Shown here: piece by piece, positions 1 to 7,146 of the stretch | Layout: the number at the start of each line of letters is the position of its first letter | How positions within the stretch are numbered: position 1 is the stretch's first letter | From: Chloroflexota bacterium | Lineage (GTDB): Bacteria; Chloroflexota; Dehalococcoidia; Lucifugimonadales; Lucifugimonadaceae | Assembly (NCBI GenBank): GCA_016210435.1 | Contig: JACQUF010000448.1 | Coordinates: 1-7,205, forward strand | DNA: 7,205 nt | Direction: 5' to 3' | Notes under the pieces: model-generated | What the model was told of the DNA's origin: nothing | The model's database searches: none | Seen by the model: the letters and a program-made list of their open reading frames with translations, nothing else | Translations under genes and position numbers: made by a program

Positions 1-57
1 TCCCAGCACCGCGCGGTCGTCGTCCACCGCAAGAATGATCGGCCTCGCCAACTCCAT
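1..57 (-). CDS. Response regulator, N-terminus only (probable receiver-thioredoxin reductase fusion)
   Basis: The first 19 codons of a minus-strand gene run off the left edge. The translation begins MELARPIILAVDDDRAVLG. A hydrophobic beta strand (IILAV) followed by an acidic triplet (D12-D14) is the classic start of a CheY-like receiver domain, where these aspartates bind Mg2+ beside the phospho-accepting aspartate further on. The start at 57 is supported by a GGAAAGG Shine-Dalgarno-like sequence about six bases upstream. The gene lies 47 bases after the histidine kinase on the same strand, so the kinase is its likely phosphodonor. From knowledge of related loci, a receiver starting this way next to a kinase with a cyclic-nucleotide-binding domain is often fused to a thioredoxin-reductase-like FAD/NAD(P) domain. 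That fusion is inferred, because none of it is visible here. A stand-alone or DNA-binding regulator remains possible. Confidence 0.8.
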   Translation of the reverse strand, partial: MELARPIILAVDDDRAVLG

Positions 58-104
58 GAAAACCCTTTCCGTTAAATCTGACCTTTCAAGTCCTGAGAGC
101 CTTG

Positions 105-1553
105 CTACGCCTTCAGCCTCCCCGGCAGCCACACCTTGAACGTGGTCTTGCCGGGACGCGATTCCGCTTCGATTGACCCGCGATGGCGGTGCACGACGAT
201 GTTGTAGCTGACGTTAAGCCCGAGCCCCGTGCCCTTCCCCGGCGGCTTGGTGGTGAAGAAAGCGTCGAAGATCTTCGGCTTCACTTCTGGCGGGATTCCC
301 GCGCCGTTGTCCTCGACTTCGACCGCGATCCCATCCCGCTCCCGGTATGTACGGACCGTCAGTTCCCCGGCCCTGCCGGCCATGGCGTCGATCGCATTAT
401 CGATCAGGTTCGTCCATACCTGGTTGAGCTCGCTCCCGTACGCCTCGACCTTCGGAAGGTTCCGCGCGAACTCTCGCTTGACCTGGATGCCCTGCTTGAG
501 CTTGTGACTGAGGATCACGAGCGTGTTCTCTATTCCCTCTTGGATATCGACGTTCTGCACCGGCGCCTGGTCCAGGTACGAATACGACTTCAGCGCCTTG
601 ACGATCTCGCTCAGGCGCCCGGCCTCCATGCCGATCTCGCGCGCCAGGGCCTGGGCTGTCCGGCTGGCCGCCACGTATCTGACAACAGCCGCGGTCTGCA
701 TCGGATCGAGGTCCGCCAGATCCGTGTCGAAAAGTTGGGGCTCGAGTCCGAGTTCGACGAGTGCGGGAGCAAGCTCCCACGCTGCCTCGACCCCGCGCGC
801 CGCAAGCCACCCCTCGAGTGCGGACTCGCGATCGCTGCGCTCCAGAGGGTCCAGGTCGACCCTGGTCGCCTCCTCCTCTCCCCTCGTGGGAGAGGATCGA
901 GGAGAGGGGGCGAACTTACCGGCCTGTCGCTCCAGCGCAACTACCGATTTCAACTTCGATTCATCCAGCGAGGCTGAAGCGAGCGACCGCGCGGCCGACG
1001 CATACTCTTCGAGCGCCTGGCTTAGCTGGTCCGCGCCCCGTTTGACCGCGGCCGCGGGGTTGTTCATCTCATGCGCCACGCCCGCGGTCAGGGTACCCAG
1101 CTGGGCCATTCGTTCGCTGTGCCTGAGCACCGCCTCAGTTGACCGCCACCGACTTAGAACCGCGTTGAATATGGCACGCGTCGCATCGTGGCTGGTCGCA
1201 ATGAGGCGATCGAAGTCCTTCTTGCCGATCGCGAGCAGCTCCGCGTCTGACCTTGCCCGGACGCTGGCCATCCTCGGCGCGCTCTCGATGATGGCCATCT
1301 CCCCGATCACGTCCCCGGGTCCGCGGCTCGAAAGCGTCGTCTCACGCCCGGCAGCCGTCTTGAAGACCTCCAGCTGCCCTTCCCGGACCACGTAGGCCCG
1401 GTCTCCAGGCTCGCCCTCGCTGAAAAGCAGCTCGCCCGTAGAAAGCCGCACTGACTGGACCGCCTCGCAGACAGTCTGCAGGTCGGCGTCGGAAAGGCCG
1501 GCAAAAAGAGGCACCTTCTTGAGAAAGTCGATGGTCGAGTCAGTGACAGGCAT
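105..1553 (-). CDS. Soluble histidine kinase with N-terminal cyclic-nucleotide-binding domain
   Basis: This is a 482-residue sensor kinase. Residues about 8-130 form a CRP-like cyclic-nucleotide-binding domain. Its phosphate-binding cassette looks intact, with GEMA (E85, the ribose contact) and PRMASV (R94, the phosphate contact). The dimerisation/phosphoacceptor segment carries the H-box [10 protein letters not shown] with H161. The C-terminal HATPase domain shows the N-box [10 protein letters not shown] (N382, N386), G1 DNGAGIP (D415), the F-box FDAFFTTK and G2 GKGTGLGL (439-446). No membrane segment or signal peptide is seen, so it should sense a cytoplasmic ligand, presumably cAMP or cGMP. 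A variable helical linker separates the H-box from the ATPase domain and contains an in-frame repeat-derived insert (residues about 216-228). The gene starts 22 bases after the cyclase stop and has only a weak ribosome-binding site, consistent with co-translation. The likely phosphoacceptor partner is the response regulator just downstream. All catalytic motifs are present, so it is expected to be active. Confidence 0.93.
875..910. repeat. Dispersed inverted repeat inserted in frame in the kinase gene
   Basis: A C/T-rich tract faces its G/A-rich complement. CCTCTCCC (875-882) and GGGAGAGG (888-895) are perfect 8-base arms around a 5-base loop, and a second purine-rich arm, CGAGGAGAGGGGG (898-910), follows. 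On the kinase strand it is read as [13 protein letters not shown] (residues 216-228), a low-complexity string unlike the surrounding helical linker. Short palindromic repeats translating to peptides of the type [10 protein letters not shown] are familiar from many bacterial genomes, where they usually lie between genes. This copy is in frame and introduces no stop codon. The assignment to a dispersed family rests on recognition and was not checked by counting genomic copies. Confidence 0.7.
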
Positions 1554-1575
1554 GGCGTTTACCGGTCGCGGCCGG

Positions 1576-4500
1576 CTACGAGGCGAAGCGGGCCAGCGCG
1601 CCGCGCAGGAACTGCTCCCGTAACGTCACATCCTTGAAATCGCCCGCGATATCGTCGATGGCCGCCCTTGCCTCGGCTGACCTTACGCCGGCCTCTTCCT
1701 GACGGCCCTGGGCCTTGAGTATGCCTGCCGCGGCTACGCGGGCCTGCCACACCATCGGCAGCATCTTCATAGCAACGGCAGCCGCTTCGGCAGACTCGAA
1801 TCTCGCAAGAGCCTCGGACAGACGGCCGCGGGCGGCCTCGATCCGGCCTGATACCAGGCCGAGCATCGGTTCACAGTTCTTCATGCCGTGCTTCGATGCA
1901 GACTGCTCCGCTTCCGCAGCGAGCCGCACCGCTTCTGCCGCTTCTCCCTTTGCAAGCGCCACGAGCGCCCGTCCGGCAATCAGGAACGGCTCGACCAGGT
2001 ACATCGGAGCGGAAGGCCTGGTCAGACCGTTCACGAAACATTCGTCCGCTTGAACGAGGTCTCCGAGGCTGAGATAGCAGAAGCCAATGTCCGCCCAGCA
2101 CATCGCGCCATAAGCCATTCCGAGCGGTTGCTCCATCAGGACCTTGGCCTGGCCATGCAACTCGAGGACGCGGTCGCGGTGCTCCTGCCCGATCTGGAAA
2201 TAATCGGTGCCGAGCGCGCAGAGAGAAACCGCCTCCATGAAGGGGAATCCGGCCATCTTGCCGGCCTCGGCTGCCCGGCGATGCCATTCCATCGCCTTCT
2301 CGTATTCGCCTGTCGCCTGGGCAATCCCTCCCAGCATCAATGCAGCATCCGCCTCGGGACTGACTGCGCGGATCGTCGAAGCGATTGACAACGCTTCCTC
2401 CGCCGAGCGCCGTGCGGCGTCCAGATCGCCGTCTCGCAGGTGTCGCATGGCAACCGGCGCCGCGAGCAATTCCGCATAGTGCTCGCGGTGGCCCAGGTCG
2501 AGCGCCAGCTGCTTCGCCTCCTGGATCACGCCCCACGCATCGTCGAAGCGGCGCATGAGGGTCAGGACGAACGAGATGTGTGTCAGCGAGAGCAGCCGCG
2601 CGGGGCCTGCCCCAAGGTCCTTGCCAAGCTGCGCGGACTGCGATAGATGGTCCATCGCGGTCGCAAACCGGCCGGTGGTGGTATTGATGAAGCAGTGCGT
2701 GATATGCAGTTCGAGGAGCCCCGGGTAGTCCTGGCAATCCCGGGCGAGGCGTTCCGCTTCTGCGAGCCTCCGTTCGGCCTCTTCTAGCCGCCCCATCCGA
2801 AGCCCTGCCGCAAAGCCCGATTTGTTGAGCGCGGAAACCTGCATCGGGCGATCGTTCCTCGCCTTCGCGAACTCGAGCATGCGCTCGTACGTTTCCATCG
2901 CCTTGCCGGCTTCGTTCGCGAACACGTATGCGCCGCCGAGCCCCTCGAACGCCCGTCTGGGGTGCGTCGTATCTGCGACCTGGTCGACGATCCCCATCGT
3001 TTTCAGGTAGTAATCGATTGCCTCTCTTGTGGAATAAGACCTCGCGGCCTGGTCGCCGGCTTCCACGAGCCAGGGCAATGCCTTCTCGGCCTCTCGTGCC
3101 TCGAGATAGTGACGAGCAATTTCCCCTGCCCTGCCCGAATCGCTTCGCTCGTACGAGCCGGCAATCTTGCGATGCAAGTCCCGCCGGCGGCTCAGGAGCA
3201 ATGTGGAATAGGCCGTCTCCTGGGTCAACGCATGCTTGAACATGAAGACCCTCGACGGAAGGCGGCTCTTTTCCCGCACGAGGCCCCTGCGCTGGAGATC
3301 GACAAGGGCTGTTTCGAGCGATTCCGGTGTTTCAGAGATCTCGGCGAGGATGTCGAAACCAAACTCGCGGCCGATCACCGACGCCGTCTGGACCACCGGC
3401 CTGGCTGACTCACTAAGCCTGTCCAGACGGGCGGTGATAACGCCCGCGATAGTATCGGGGACCGCGATATCCGCGATCTCCCGTGTCGCGTGCCAGACCC
3501 CGTTGTCGCGTCTCACTGACCCGCTGTCTATCAGAGAACGGATTACTTCTTCGACGAAGAACGGGTTCCCTTCCGATTTCTTCAGGATCAGGTCCCGCAG
3601 GTGGTCAGGGAGCCCCTCGATATGCAGGAGCGTGTTGACGAGAGTACGGGTGTCCTTTGCATCCAGGGGCTCGAGCATCAAGGACGTATATCTGTGCGCG
3701 TAATCACGGCTCGCGAGTTCGTGAAGCTTCCAGGATGGGTCCTGTCGCTGTGGACGGTAAACGGCGAGCAACATCAGCGTCGACTGCTCAGTGACCGGAA
3801 GAAGGTGCTCGATCAGTTCCAGGGAAGTCGAGTCTACCCAGTGCAGGTCCTCGAACACGAGCACGACTGGCCTGCTCCGGCCCAGCCTGCCGAAGAACTC
3901 GCAAGTCGCACGGAAGACCTGCGCGCGCAGTAGCGGGGGCGCCAGGTACTTGACTCGTTCGAAGTCCTCGCCTTCGACCGGCAGCTGAAGCATCGTGGCC
4001 AGGAACGGCGCAACGTCCAGGGTCCGGTCCGCCATCACACTGGCAACTTCTGCCTTGAGCCTGGCGTACTTTTCCGCCGGCGAGTCCCGCGATCGCAGGC
4101 GAAGGCATTCGACCAGCAGGTCGACGAACGGTGCATATGGCGTGGACGTCTCGTATGAGAACGACCTGCCTTCATACCAGGCGACCGGCGGCCGTTCCGA
4201 CGATCCCGTCGCGCGTTCCGTTGAGGTCACGGTCTCCGAGTTCACTTCCTTGCGAACCTCGGCCACCAGTCTCGATTTGCCGACGCCGGCGTCACCGATC
4301 ACGGAGACAATCTGTCCACGTCCCGCGCGCAGTTCTGCCAGGGCCGCCTTCAGCGAGCGGTACTCGGTCTCGCGACCGATCAGGGGTGCCTCGAGACCTG
4401 CCAGTCCCCGCAGCCGGCCCGGCTCCGCGCGTGGTCGGAGGACACGGTATGACCGGACAGGTTCCGCACGACCCTTGACCTCGACAGCGCCGAGTTCTTT

Positions 4501-5238
4501 GAAGTCGAACAGCGGTGCCACCAGCCGGTGCGTGTTTTCCGCGATCTGCACGGTCCCGGGCTCGGCCGTCTGCTCCATCCTGGCAGCAAGGTTGACCGCG
4601 TCACCGAGCGCCGTGTACTCCATACGAAGGTCCGAACCGACCTCGCCAACCACGACGAGCCCGGTATTGATGCCGGCCCGGACATTGAAGTCGAAACCCC
4701 AACGTGCCTTGACCTTCTCGCGGTACGGCTGGACTTCGTCCAGGACTTCGAGCGCGGCGAGCACCGCACGCTGGGGATCGTCCTCGTGCGCAATCGGGGC
4801 GCCGAAGAAGGCGAGGATCGCGTCACCCATGAGCCGCGCCAGCGTGCCCTCGTACCGGTATACGGGTGCGATCAGGCACTCGAACCCGCCGTTCATGATC
4901 TCGGCCCATTCTTCGGGGTCGAGCTTCTCGGCCGCGGACGTCGAGCCCTTGACGTCGCAGAAGAGCACCGTCACCGTCCGACGCTCGCCCAGCATTCCTC
5001 CGTGCGAGCGTGCGTATTCCAGCTTCGCCATCAGCTCCGCCGGCACGTATCGCTGCAAGGCAGGCGCACGAGCGGCGACACGCTGCTGCCCTACCTTGTG
5101 CCCGCACATCGGGCAGAAAGCTGCCCCCTGAGGAATCGGTGAGGAGCATTGCGGGCAGGCAGTCTGCATCGGGCCGCCACAATTCGTGCAGAATCGAGCG
5201 CCTTCCGGGTTCGGGGTTTCACAGCGCGGGCAGTTCAT
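1576..5238 (-). CDS. Zinc-ribbon / class III nucleotide cyclase / AAA ATPase / TPR signalling protein
   Basis: This is a 1220-residue multidomain protein. Residues 1-46 hold two zinc ribbons (C3, C6, C17, C20 and C28, C31, C42, C45). Residues about 85-265 are a class III adenylate/guanylate cyclase domain: LFCDVKGST and LMGDAILAFFG supply the two metal-binding aspartates (D95, D139), and GDAVNLAARM supplies N216 and the transition-state arginine R220. R135 stands where lysine is typical for purine recognition, and T209 is of the class IIIb type. Residues about 285-540 form an AAA_16/STAND-like ATPase with Walker A GDAGVGKS (315-322) and Walker B VLVFEDLHWVD (E463, D464). Residues about 700-1195 contain roughly ten TPR-like helical pairs. 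No membrane segment is visible, so the protein is probably cytoplasmic, with the TPR array sensing a partner. The start at 5238 is chosen because the zinc ribbon begins there, as is usual in this family. ATG codons at 5376 and 5403 in the same frame would add 46 or 55 residues that match no domain. The one at 5376 has the better ribosome-binding site (GGAG, five bases upstream). It is probably the first gene of the signalling operon. Confidence 0.92.
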   Translation of the reverse strand: MNCPRCETPNPEGARFCTNCGGPMQTACPQCSSPIPQGAAFCPMCGHKVGQQRVAARAPALQRYVPAELMAKLEYARSHGGMLGERRTVTVLFCDVKGSTSAAEKLDPEEWAEIMNGGFECLIAPVYRYEGTLARLMGDAILAFFGAPIAHEDDPQRAVLAALEVLDEVQPYREKVKARWGFDFNVRAGINTGLVVVGEVGSDLRMEYTALGDAVNLAARMEQTAEPGTVQIAENTHRLVAPLFDFKELGAVEVKGRAEPVRSYRVLRPRAEPGRLRGLAGLEAPLIGRETEYRSLKAALAELRAGRGQIVSVIGDAGVGKSRLVAEVRKEVNSETVTSTERATGSSERPPVAWYEGRSFSYETSTPYAPFVDLLVECLRLRSRDSPAEKYARLKAEVASVMADRTLDVAPFLATMLQLPVEGEDFERVKYLAPPLLRAQVFRATCEFFGRLGRSRPVVLVFEDLHWVDSTSLELIEHLLPVTEQSTLMLLAVYRPQRQDPSWKLHELASRDYAHRYTSLMLEPLDAKDTRTLVNTLLHIEGLPDHLRDLILKKSEGNPFFVEEVIRSLIDSGSVRRDNGVWHATREIADIAVPDTIAGVITARLDRLSESARPVVQTASVIGREFGFDILAEISETPESLETALVDLQRRGLVREKSRLPSRVFMFKHALTQETAYSTLLLSRRRDLHRKIAGSYERSDSGRAGEIARHYLEAREAEKALPWLVEAGDQAARSYSTREAIDYYLKTMGIVDQVADTTHPRRAFEGLGGAYVFANEAGKAMETYERMLEFAKARNDRPMQVSALNKSGFAAGLRMGRLEEAERRLAEAERLARDCQDYPGLLELHITHCFINTTTGRFATAMDHLSQSAQLGKDLGAGPARLLSLTHISFVLTLMRRFDDAWGVIQEAKQLALDLGHREHYAELLAAPVAMRHLRDGDLDAARRSAEEALSIASTIRAVSPEADAALMLGGIAQATGEYEKAMEWHRRAAEAGKMAGFPFMEAVSLCALGTDYFQIGQEHRDRVLELHGQAKVLMEQPLGMAYGAMCWADIGFCYLSLGDLVQADECFVNGLTRPSAPMYLVEPFLIAGRALVALAKGEAAEAVRLAAEAEQSASKHGMKNCEPMLGLVSGRIEAARGRLSEALARFESAEAAAVAMKMLPMVWQARVAAAGILKAQGRQEEAGVRSAEARAAIDDIAGDFKDVTLREQFLRGALARFAS

Positions 5239-5540
5239 CTCAGGTTCGTTTACCCGAAGACGCCCAGGTCTCCCACCATGACAATCGGCCCAGATGATAA
5301 CGGTTACGCGGCTGGGCCGCTCGCATCCAGGACCAGACGTTTCCTTGCGACGTGTTGCGGTGTTGAACAGCTTCATGCGCTCTCCATCGGCATTCCCGGA
5401 CATGCTGAAGAACTGAACCTGGATGTTGTATGTTGCGCTCGCTTCTCAAGTCTTTGCGTCGTCACAGTGCAATTGCCGGCAAATTCCTCTCCTCATTCAC
5501 CGAGGGGATGGAGCGACGGCGTGGGGGTGGGTCCAGACAC
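5239..5540. promoter_or_regulatory. Divergent intergenic control region
   Basis: This stretch of about 300 bases separates the minus-strand signalling operon from the plus-strand oxidoreductase pair, so promoters for both must lie in or near it. I see no convincing -35/-10 pair on either strand. The part from 5239 to 5403 stays open in the cyclase frame and could be an N-terminal extension if an upstream ATG is used. The part from 5430 to 5540 stays open in the frame of the small plus-strand protein (ATG at 5430 and 5508). Neither extension resembles a known domain, which favours reading the stretch as leader sequence. Confidence 0.5.
5473..5482. promoter_or_regulatory. Short perfect palindrome, candidate operator
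   Basis: TTGCCGGCAA is a perfect 10-base palindrome and overlaps a second one, GCAATTGC (5469-5476). It sits inside the divergent spacer upstream of the small plus-strand gene, a sensible place for a repressor or activator site. Palindromes of this length also arise by chance in GC-rich DNA, and no regulator gene is visible in the window, so this is a weak call. Confidence 0.2.
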
Positions 5541-7060: not shown

Positions 7061-7129
7061 TGTCGTCCTGAGGAGCCCCGATCCCAACGGGGCGACGAAG
7101 AGCTTGCCCTGAGCCTGCCGAAGGGATCT
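7061..7129. repeat. Composite dispersed repeat downstream of the oxidoreductase
   Basis: Two related units lie in tandem. The first (about 7061-7099) has GTCGTCCTGAGGAG, then a perfect hairpin GCCCCG (7075-7080) / CGGGGC (7088-7093), then GACGAAG. The second (about 7103-7129) reads TTGCCCTGAGCCTGCCGAAG followed by GGATCTG. Both share the CCTGAG...CGAAG framework of a widespread intergenic repeat type often seen as variants of TCCTGAG...GACGAAGGATCT. It begins five bases after the oxidoreductase stop, and the hairpin could protect the mRNA 3' end or slow transcription. It lacks the T-tract of an intrinsic terminator. The family identity is from recognition and was not searched. Confidence 0.65.
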
Positions 7130-7146
7130 GTTGCGCAGGTCAACAG
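7128..7146. other. Hairpin in the tail region
   Basis: CTGTTG (7128-7133) and CAACAG (7141-7146) are perfect 6-base arms around a 7-base loop, directly after the composite repeat. No T-run follows on either strand, so it is not a standard terminator. It could be the outer part of the repeat or a chance structure. The rest of the tail to 7205 shows no gene I can support. Confidence 0.3.

Follow-up and report, generated by a model that had tools for sequence, protein, structure and literature searches.

A predicted cyclase, histidine kinase and receiver chain on a Lucifugimonadaceae contig, with a CxxC-less receiver-flavoprotein in its relatives

A stretch of 7,205 nucleotides from a Chloroflexota bacterium of the family Lucifugimonadaceae (GenBank assembly GCA_016210435.1, contig JACQUF010000448.1; the whole stretch is called the window below) was analysed for a cluster of three genes: one for a class III nucleotide cyclase, one for a soluble histidine kinase, and a truncated third that begins like a receiver-domain protein. 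With confidence that we put at about even, the locus is read as a likely signalling chain, in which the cyclase would make a cyclic nucleotide, the nucleotide would act on the kinase, and the kinase on a receiver that is fused in relatives to a flavoprotein of thioredoxin-reductase fold without CxxC motifs.

The window covers contig C413 from end to end, in a source genome listed as 61% complete, so that only 19 codons of the third gene could be read. All three genes lie on the minus strand (cyclase 5238-1576, kinase 1553-105, receiver start 57-1), separated by 22 bases (1554-1575) and 47 bases (58-104). An earlier note, made by a model from the letters of the window, had given the same three consecutive genes with gaps of these lengths, and the coordinates agree. 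Features were assigned as follows.

Positions 1576 to 5238, minus strand: class III nucleotide cyclase of 1220 residues, with double zinc ribbon, AAA_16 ATPase and TPR region (domain scan; solved-cyclase matches).
Positions 4462 to 4980, minus strand: Guanylate_cyc catalytic domain, residues 87-259 (domain scan, alignment).
Positions 3769 to 4386, minus strand: AAA_16 ATPase domain, residues 285-490, with Walker A GDAGVGKS (domain scan, alignment).
Positions 2245 to 2688, minus strand: best-scoring TPR_MalT stretch, residues 851-998 (39.9 bits, under the 45-bit cutoff).
Positions 105 to 1553, minus strand: soluble histidine kinase of 482 residues (domain scan, alignment).
Positions 1194 to 1451, minus strand: cyclic-nucleotide (cNMP)-binding domain, residues 35-120, with the E85 codon at 1299-1301 and the R94 codon at 1272-1274 (domain scan, alignments).
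Positions 1071 to 1073, minus strand: codon of the phospho-acceptor His161 within HEMNNPAAA (invariant in 30 sequences; 101 of 102 in the larger set).
Positions 123 to 431, minus strand: HATPase_c domain, residues 375-477 (domain scan).
Positions 1 to 57, minus strand: opening 19 codons of a likely receiver-domain protein, which continues past the contig end (translation, comparison with receiver-flavoprotein starts).

The domain scan of the cyclase gave DZR, Guanylate_cyc and AAA_16 domains and a TPR region, where TPR_12 scored 31.8 bits, over its cutoff of 30.1, and TPR_MalT stayed below its own; the class III cyclase with ATPase and TPR array named in the earlier note was thus recovered. 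The reading frame stays open upstream to an ATG at 5403. The start at 5238 was favoured because the zinc ribbon and the matches of relatives begin there. The best solved-cyclase match of the catalytic domain was CyaB (3r5g, 5e-30), and ADCY10 was also among the solved matches. The metal Asp motifs FCDVKGST and LMGD and the Asn/Arg motif VNLAAR are all kept, and the two metal Asp and the transition-state Asn and Arg were retained in 20 of the 20 aligned relatives with sequence there (L174 has none). Class III cyclases canonically specify the base by Lys together with Asp or Thr. At the positions that specify the base in class III cyclases, the window cyclase was aligned with Arg and Thr. We infer that cyclic AMP (cAMP) would be its most likely product and cyclic GMP (cGMP) a possible one. 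Two cluster relatives (L126 and L128) read Gln and Leu at these positions, so the nucleotide may differ between clusters.

Linkage of the genes was surveyed in all 250 genomes of the order with four protein queries (cyclase, kinase, receiver-flavoprotein and metallophosphoesterase). Cyclase matches at E ≤1e-150 were found in 26 genomes, and 16 of the 250 had a close cyclase, defined as a match of at least 1000 bits. Kinase matches at E ≤1e-40 were found in 26 genomes. The receiver-flavoprotein query matched 54 genomes at E ≤1e-60; the receiver-bearing kind was present in 17 of these (16 long matches and the broken gene of G090), and the other 37 had only flavoprotein matches without all or most of the receiver. 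The close cyclase adjoined a kinase or receiver-flavoprotein gene, or lay one small gene apart, in 12 of the 16 genomes, and the linkage is counted as conserved on that basis; its absence had been named in the earlier note as grounds for giving up the proposal. Nine of the twelve linked cyclases, the window's included, had 5-149 bases between matches. The order was cyclase-receiver-kinase in six genomes (G001, G088, G023, G110, G004 and G013), cyclase-kinase-receiver in the window, and receiver-kinase-CoA_binding-cyclase in G086 and G097, where one small CoA-binding gene separates the cyclase. In three genomes (G132, G161 and G109) the contig ends behind or inside the receiver gene, which in G109 is cut by the contig end. 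The kinase occurred in 13 of the 16 genomes with a close cyclase and in 13 of the 234 others (Fisher 2.9e-12, with shared ancestry uncorrected). Beyond the order, the cyclase was found in 3 of 400 genomes of a phylum draw at E ≤1e-220, the window's own among them. In G275 the contig stops right behind the cyclase, and in G563 no kinase or receiver match was found near the cyclase in the 12 kb examined. No relative was found in 32 stretches of viral contigs.

Wider sampling was done from the side of the kinase: its alignment matched at least 589 genome loci, and the best 80 were taken. A receiver-flavoprotein gene lay within 1.5 kb on the kinase's strand in 57 of the 80 (upstream in 52, downstream in 5). 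The other 23 had none within that distance, and in 6 of these a contig end was close on one side. A cyclase match of at least 600 bits lay within 8 kb of 8 of 38 kinase rows that bear the cyclic-nucleotide cassette described below (window excluded) and of 0 of 63 other rows (p 0.00024; rows share ancestry). For a phosphoesterase match of at least 200 bits nearby the counts were 7 of 38 and 0 of 63 (p 0.0007; rows again share ancestry). Kinases with a strong nearby cyclase match all belonged to the cassette-bearing clade. These rows also bear on another explanation, by which the kinase binds cyclic nucleotide from a cell-wide pool made by several cyclases and the neighbouring cyclase is a convenient source rather than a dedicated partner. 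The 30 of 38 cassette-bearing rows without a strong cyclase match nearby would agree with such a pool, as would the two long cyclase matches in several genomes of the order (for example G225 and G004). Against it stands the tight adjacency of a single cyclase subfamily to the other genes in 12 of 16 genomes and in differing arrangements (cyclase first, or last behind the CoA-binding gene), and the pool is considered rather unlikely. A dedicated cyclase is retained in the proposed chain because this adjacency is conserved.

The kinase is a soluble protein with cNMP_binding and HATPase_c domains in the domain scan. A phosphate-binding cassette of the PKA/CRP type, with its Glu and Arg, is present in the N-terminal domain, which aligns over the cassette to regulatory subunits of protein kinase A (PKA). 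The intact E85/R94 cassette read in the earlier note held up, since both residues, like H161, were invariant in an alignment of 30 sequences (the window kinase and 29 relatives). The kinase is likely a cyclic-nucleotide binder through this cassette, as predicted from its residues. The hallmarks of a sensor histidine kinase (phospho-acceptor His, N box and G boxes) are all present; further invariant columns of the same alignment were N382, D385, N386, D415, G417, G419, G441, G443 and G445. In a larger set N386, G417, G443 and G445 were found in 102 of 102 kinases and His161 in 101. In an AlphaFold model (predicted local distance difference test, pLDDT, 85.1) one unbroken helix, residues 122-193, runs from the nucleotide domain through His161, and is followed by a helical insert and a second long helix, residues 284-323.

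Glu85 and Arg94 were kept together in 39 of the 102 kinases. A maximum likelihood tree was built from residue 135 onward, leaving out the nucleotide domain (1-134), and rooted at the midpoint, with several long branches flagged. All 39 cassette-bearing kinases fell in one clade of 40 (support 98/96) with one loss, and the other clade had 0 of 62; the cassette is thus clearly a clade trait on this tree. The possibility was weighed that the N-terminal domain senses another ligand or a protein and that the cassette is a remnant of the fold. The Glu/Arg pair is missing in 62 of 62 rows of the sister clade, many of them still beside the same flavoprotein, and because of this a domain of the nucleotide type can evidently serve without cyclic nucleotides; three direct fusions of a cNMP-fold domain to the flavoprotein also lack the Arg (by eye). 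Within the window's clade, by contrast, the cassette is missing in just 1 of 40 kinases, E85 and R94 do not vary among the 30 aligned, and the nearest database kinases, with the window kinase counted among them, showed the cassette pattern in 120 of 120. Another ligand is accordingly thought unlikely for the window kinase, and cyclic-nucleotide binding is kept as the predicted function.

Several side observations concern the same kinase family. Two Rubrobacteraceae bins (L075 and L101) have three tandem kinases of the family behind one receiver-flavoprotein, none with an intact cassette. A CoA_binding_2 domain (PF13380) is fused to the kinase C-terminus or encoded next to it in L042, L044, L045, L046, L050, L051, L053 and L055, and is found as separate genes in L126 and L128; in the 80 genome loci it occurred only behind cassette-bearing kinases. 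The kinase of L053, on a contig labelled Heimdallarchaeota, has such a CoA-binding neighbour and groups among Chloroflexota rows, on a long branch and with unusual letter composition; it may stem from contamination or transfer.

The third gene (frame 57-1) translates to MELARPIILAVDDDRAVLG, a receiver start, up to 11 of whose 19 residues are identical to receiver-flavoprotein starts. The earlier note had expected this receiver to be fused to a thioredoxin-reductase-like flavoprotein; the receiver start and the fusion in relatives were found, and in the window itself the fusion would lie beyond the contig. The source genome (61% complete) yielded no further fragment of a receiver-flavoprotein (best match 29 bits). 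The gene might instead belong to another kind of response regulator, such as a DNA-binding one, in which case the output of the cluster would be no flavoprotein. Receiver starts are similar across families, which leaves room for this with so few codons in view and with the kinase before the receiver, an uncommon order. In a small control with BLOSUM62, four other receiver starts from the same loci scored 18-28, whereas 36 fused ones had a median of 47, and a same-genus relative carries the receiver-flavoprotein within the same cluster. With these points and the identities above against it, a different regulator is judged improbable, and a receiver-flavoprotein is preferred for the third gene.

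In relatives the fused protein was scanned as Response_reg and Pyr_redox_2 in one chain with a glutaredoxin-like stretch between. The model of the receiver-flavoprotein had a pLDDT of 88.2. In a structure search most of the nearest solved chains were thioredoxin reductases, the reductase AhpF also ranked high, and thioredoxin reductase 5mh4 had the highest TM-score over the target (0.94) among the matches listed. The receiver residues (Asp pair, acceptor Asp, Thr and Lys) were found in 68 of 68 receiver-flavoproteins. A CxxC at the reductase site or at the glutaredoxin-like site was found in 0 of these 68 proteins of relatives; C..C occurred outside these sites in 4 of them, and the second of the glutaredoxin-like positions carried a single Cys in 4. 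Among the 120 database proteins nearest to the receiver-flavoprotein none had any C..C at all. Receiver-less matches with the same glutaredoxin-reductase layout numbered 39. Twenty were fetched, are 35-42% identical, and all 20 have CPDC and CATC. Receiver presence therefore goes with absence of both disulfides (0 of 68 fused against 20 of 20 receiver-less proteins with CxxC). A thiol-redox output was rejected for relatives on these counts, and with it that form of the redox output claimed in the earlier note. Judged by its residues, the fused flavoprotein of relatives is not a thioredoxin reductase of any known kind. Where the nearest database flavoproteins are named by their source, the name is mostly 'thioredoxin reductase (NADPH)', and a large family is likely misnamed because the proteins read lack the residues for that reaction. 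The chemistry of the receiver-fused flavoproteins is directly testable; adjacent kinase and flavoprotein genes were found in named organisms (Nostoc sp. C052, Caballeronia sp. NK8 and Deinococcus aetherius), which are candidate sources for such bench work.

Public plasmids encode CxxC-less flavoproteins of the same kind fused straight to a cNMP-fold domain. In the three fusions read, CxxC was found in 0 of 3 and the cassette Arg, by eye, in 0 of 3. As proof of cAMP control these fusions are weakened by the missing Arg; what they would show is recurrence of the pairing of cNMP fold and flavoprotein, not cAMP as the ligand. Two of the fusion loci (L222 and L225), on Streptomyces and Rhodococcus plasmids, lie in a row of clpB, trxA and UBP zinc-finger genes, and UBP zinc-finger genes also adjoin the flavoprotein genes of L224 and L228.

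Several findings weigh against the chain as a whole. Four of the 16 close cyclases (G212, G225, G131 and G019) are not beside the pair, and only 8 of the 38 cassette-bearing rows have the cyclase match within 8 kb. With the broad genome set alone, the cyclase count was 1 of 23 against 0 of 63 (p=0.27) and the phosphoesterase count 2 of 23 against 0 of 63 (p=0.07); the link to the cyclase is mainly a feature of one order, which is also more densely sampled, and only there is it strong. The cassette-less kinase of L104 has a weaker cyclase match (317 bits), on the opposite strand and 7.7 kb off. The cyclase product is uncertain because the base-specifying residues are Arg and Thr here and Gln and Leu in two cluster relatives. 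The predicted template modelling score (pTM) of the kinase model is just 0.49. The third gene is visible for 19 codons only, and the kinase precedes the receiver, as in the window, at only 5 of the 57 loci with a receiver-flavoprotein within 1.5 kb. Taken together, the cascade from cyclase through kinase and receiver to redox output proposed in the earlier note was sustained in its linkage, its cassette and, in relatives, its fusion, and was lost in its thiol-redox end.

The chain would work as follows, building on the gene content and order, the conservation and the motifs observed as present or absent. Some signal would be sensed by the TPR/AAA part of the cyclase and drive cyclisation. The cyclic nucleotide, of whichever base, would bind the N-terminal domain of the kinase and move the continuous helix (122-193) that carries His161. 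Phosphate would pass from the kinase to the receiver Asp, D62 in relatives. The receiver would then alter, upwards or downwards, the attached FAD/NAD(P)H flavoprotein, which would either hand electrons directly from the flavin to a non-disulfide acceptor or read the NAD(P)H state. A metallophosphoesterase, clustered in several relatives, might end the signal. A fuller proposal, offered tentatively, is a complete circuit bypassing CRP, with a dedicated cyclase, a kinase with a PKA-type cassette, and a flavoprotein that gave up both disulfides on gaining a receiver and may have become an oxidoreductase without disulfides or a sensor of NAD(P)H, switched in either case by phosphorylation.

The linked phosphoesterase was identified by the domain scan as a calcineurin-like metallophosphoesterase. 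In the window's family, 13 other genomes bear the kinase, and in 10 of them the phosphoesterase gene shares its contig, at distances of 8 to 6095 bases; in the six cases at 1.8 kb or more, receiver or cyclase genes intervene. In L049 (a bin assigned to Acidimicrobiaceae) and in L081 it stands ahead of the receiver gene. Homologues at E ≤1e-40 were found in 83 of the 250 genomes of the order, often without the kinase, and no match at E 1e-40 was found in the window's own genome (61% complete). The enzyme was rejected as a proven cAMP phosphodiesterase CpdA, as the best of three proteins scored 36.9 bits against the curated cutoff of 225 for NCBIfam NF008359. The 12 solved relatives found by sequence were purple or tartrate-resistant acid phosphatases, which also argues against CpdA, and database names were split between CpdA and CPPED1.

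Elsewhere in the window a Gfo/Idh/MocA oxidoreductase is encoded divergently on the plus strand (domain scan). A palindromic interspersed repeat (positions 874 to 896, plus strand, in frame within the kinase gene; repeat count, alignment) has the form CCTCTCCC-N5-GGGAGAGG, with 58 sites in the source genome against 0 for the reversed control (at most 1 mismatch). It coincides with about 13 extra kinase residues, which none of the 29 aligned relatives has. An apparent further interspersed repeat, of the ccctgagcctgccgaaggg type, was noted at 7076-7130 by eye only.

Open-licence papers on REC-thioredoxin reductase fusions, cNMP histidine kinases, the cyclase and cNMP-thioredoxin-reductase proteins were searched, and no study of this type of cluster was found by title or abstract start. 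Several known systems are comparable in part. Among class III cyclases with ATPase/TPR tails, sAC (ADCY10), which we take to be the architectural counterpart, likewise has Guanylate_cyc, AAA_16 and a TPR region in one chain; the window cyclase differs in its linked kinase and in an Arg that replaces the usual base-specifying Lys. Proteins annotated as 'cyclic nucleotide-binding domain-containing thioredoxin-disulfide reductase' share the cNMP-fold domain on a CxxC-less flavoprotein. They are direct fusions with no kinase, and the phosphate-binding Arg is absent in the three read. Response regulators of the REC-thioredoxin reductase kind, called 'Mycobacterium-like', are mentioned in an archaeal census and share the fusion of a receiver to a flavoprotein of thioredoxin-reductase fold; the missing CxxC pair, and the kinase cassette with its attached cyclase, are reported here and do not appear in the part of the census available (PMC5847659). 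The thioredoxin reductase (NTR) relatives FFTR and DDOR have the fold and FAD motif in common with the receiver-fused proteins. FFTR and DDOR keep the redox-active CxxC of NTR, according to the portion of the source at hand (PMC9025218), whereas the receiver-fused proteins have none at that site. The histidine kinases ShkA and CckA are controlled by cyclic di-GMP (c-di-GMP), as given in extracts of a review (PMC11139211), and are alike in that a nucleotide second messenger sets histidine kinase activity, as is predicted here; in the window, sensing would instead fall to a cAMP-fold domain of the PKA/CRP type that is attached to the helix of the phospho-acceptor. According to the same extracts, CRP is in most bacteria the sole path by which cAMP has global effects (PMC11139211); a histidine kinase that combines a cAMP-fold domain with a cyclase of its own would, if true, offer a further route.

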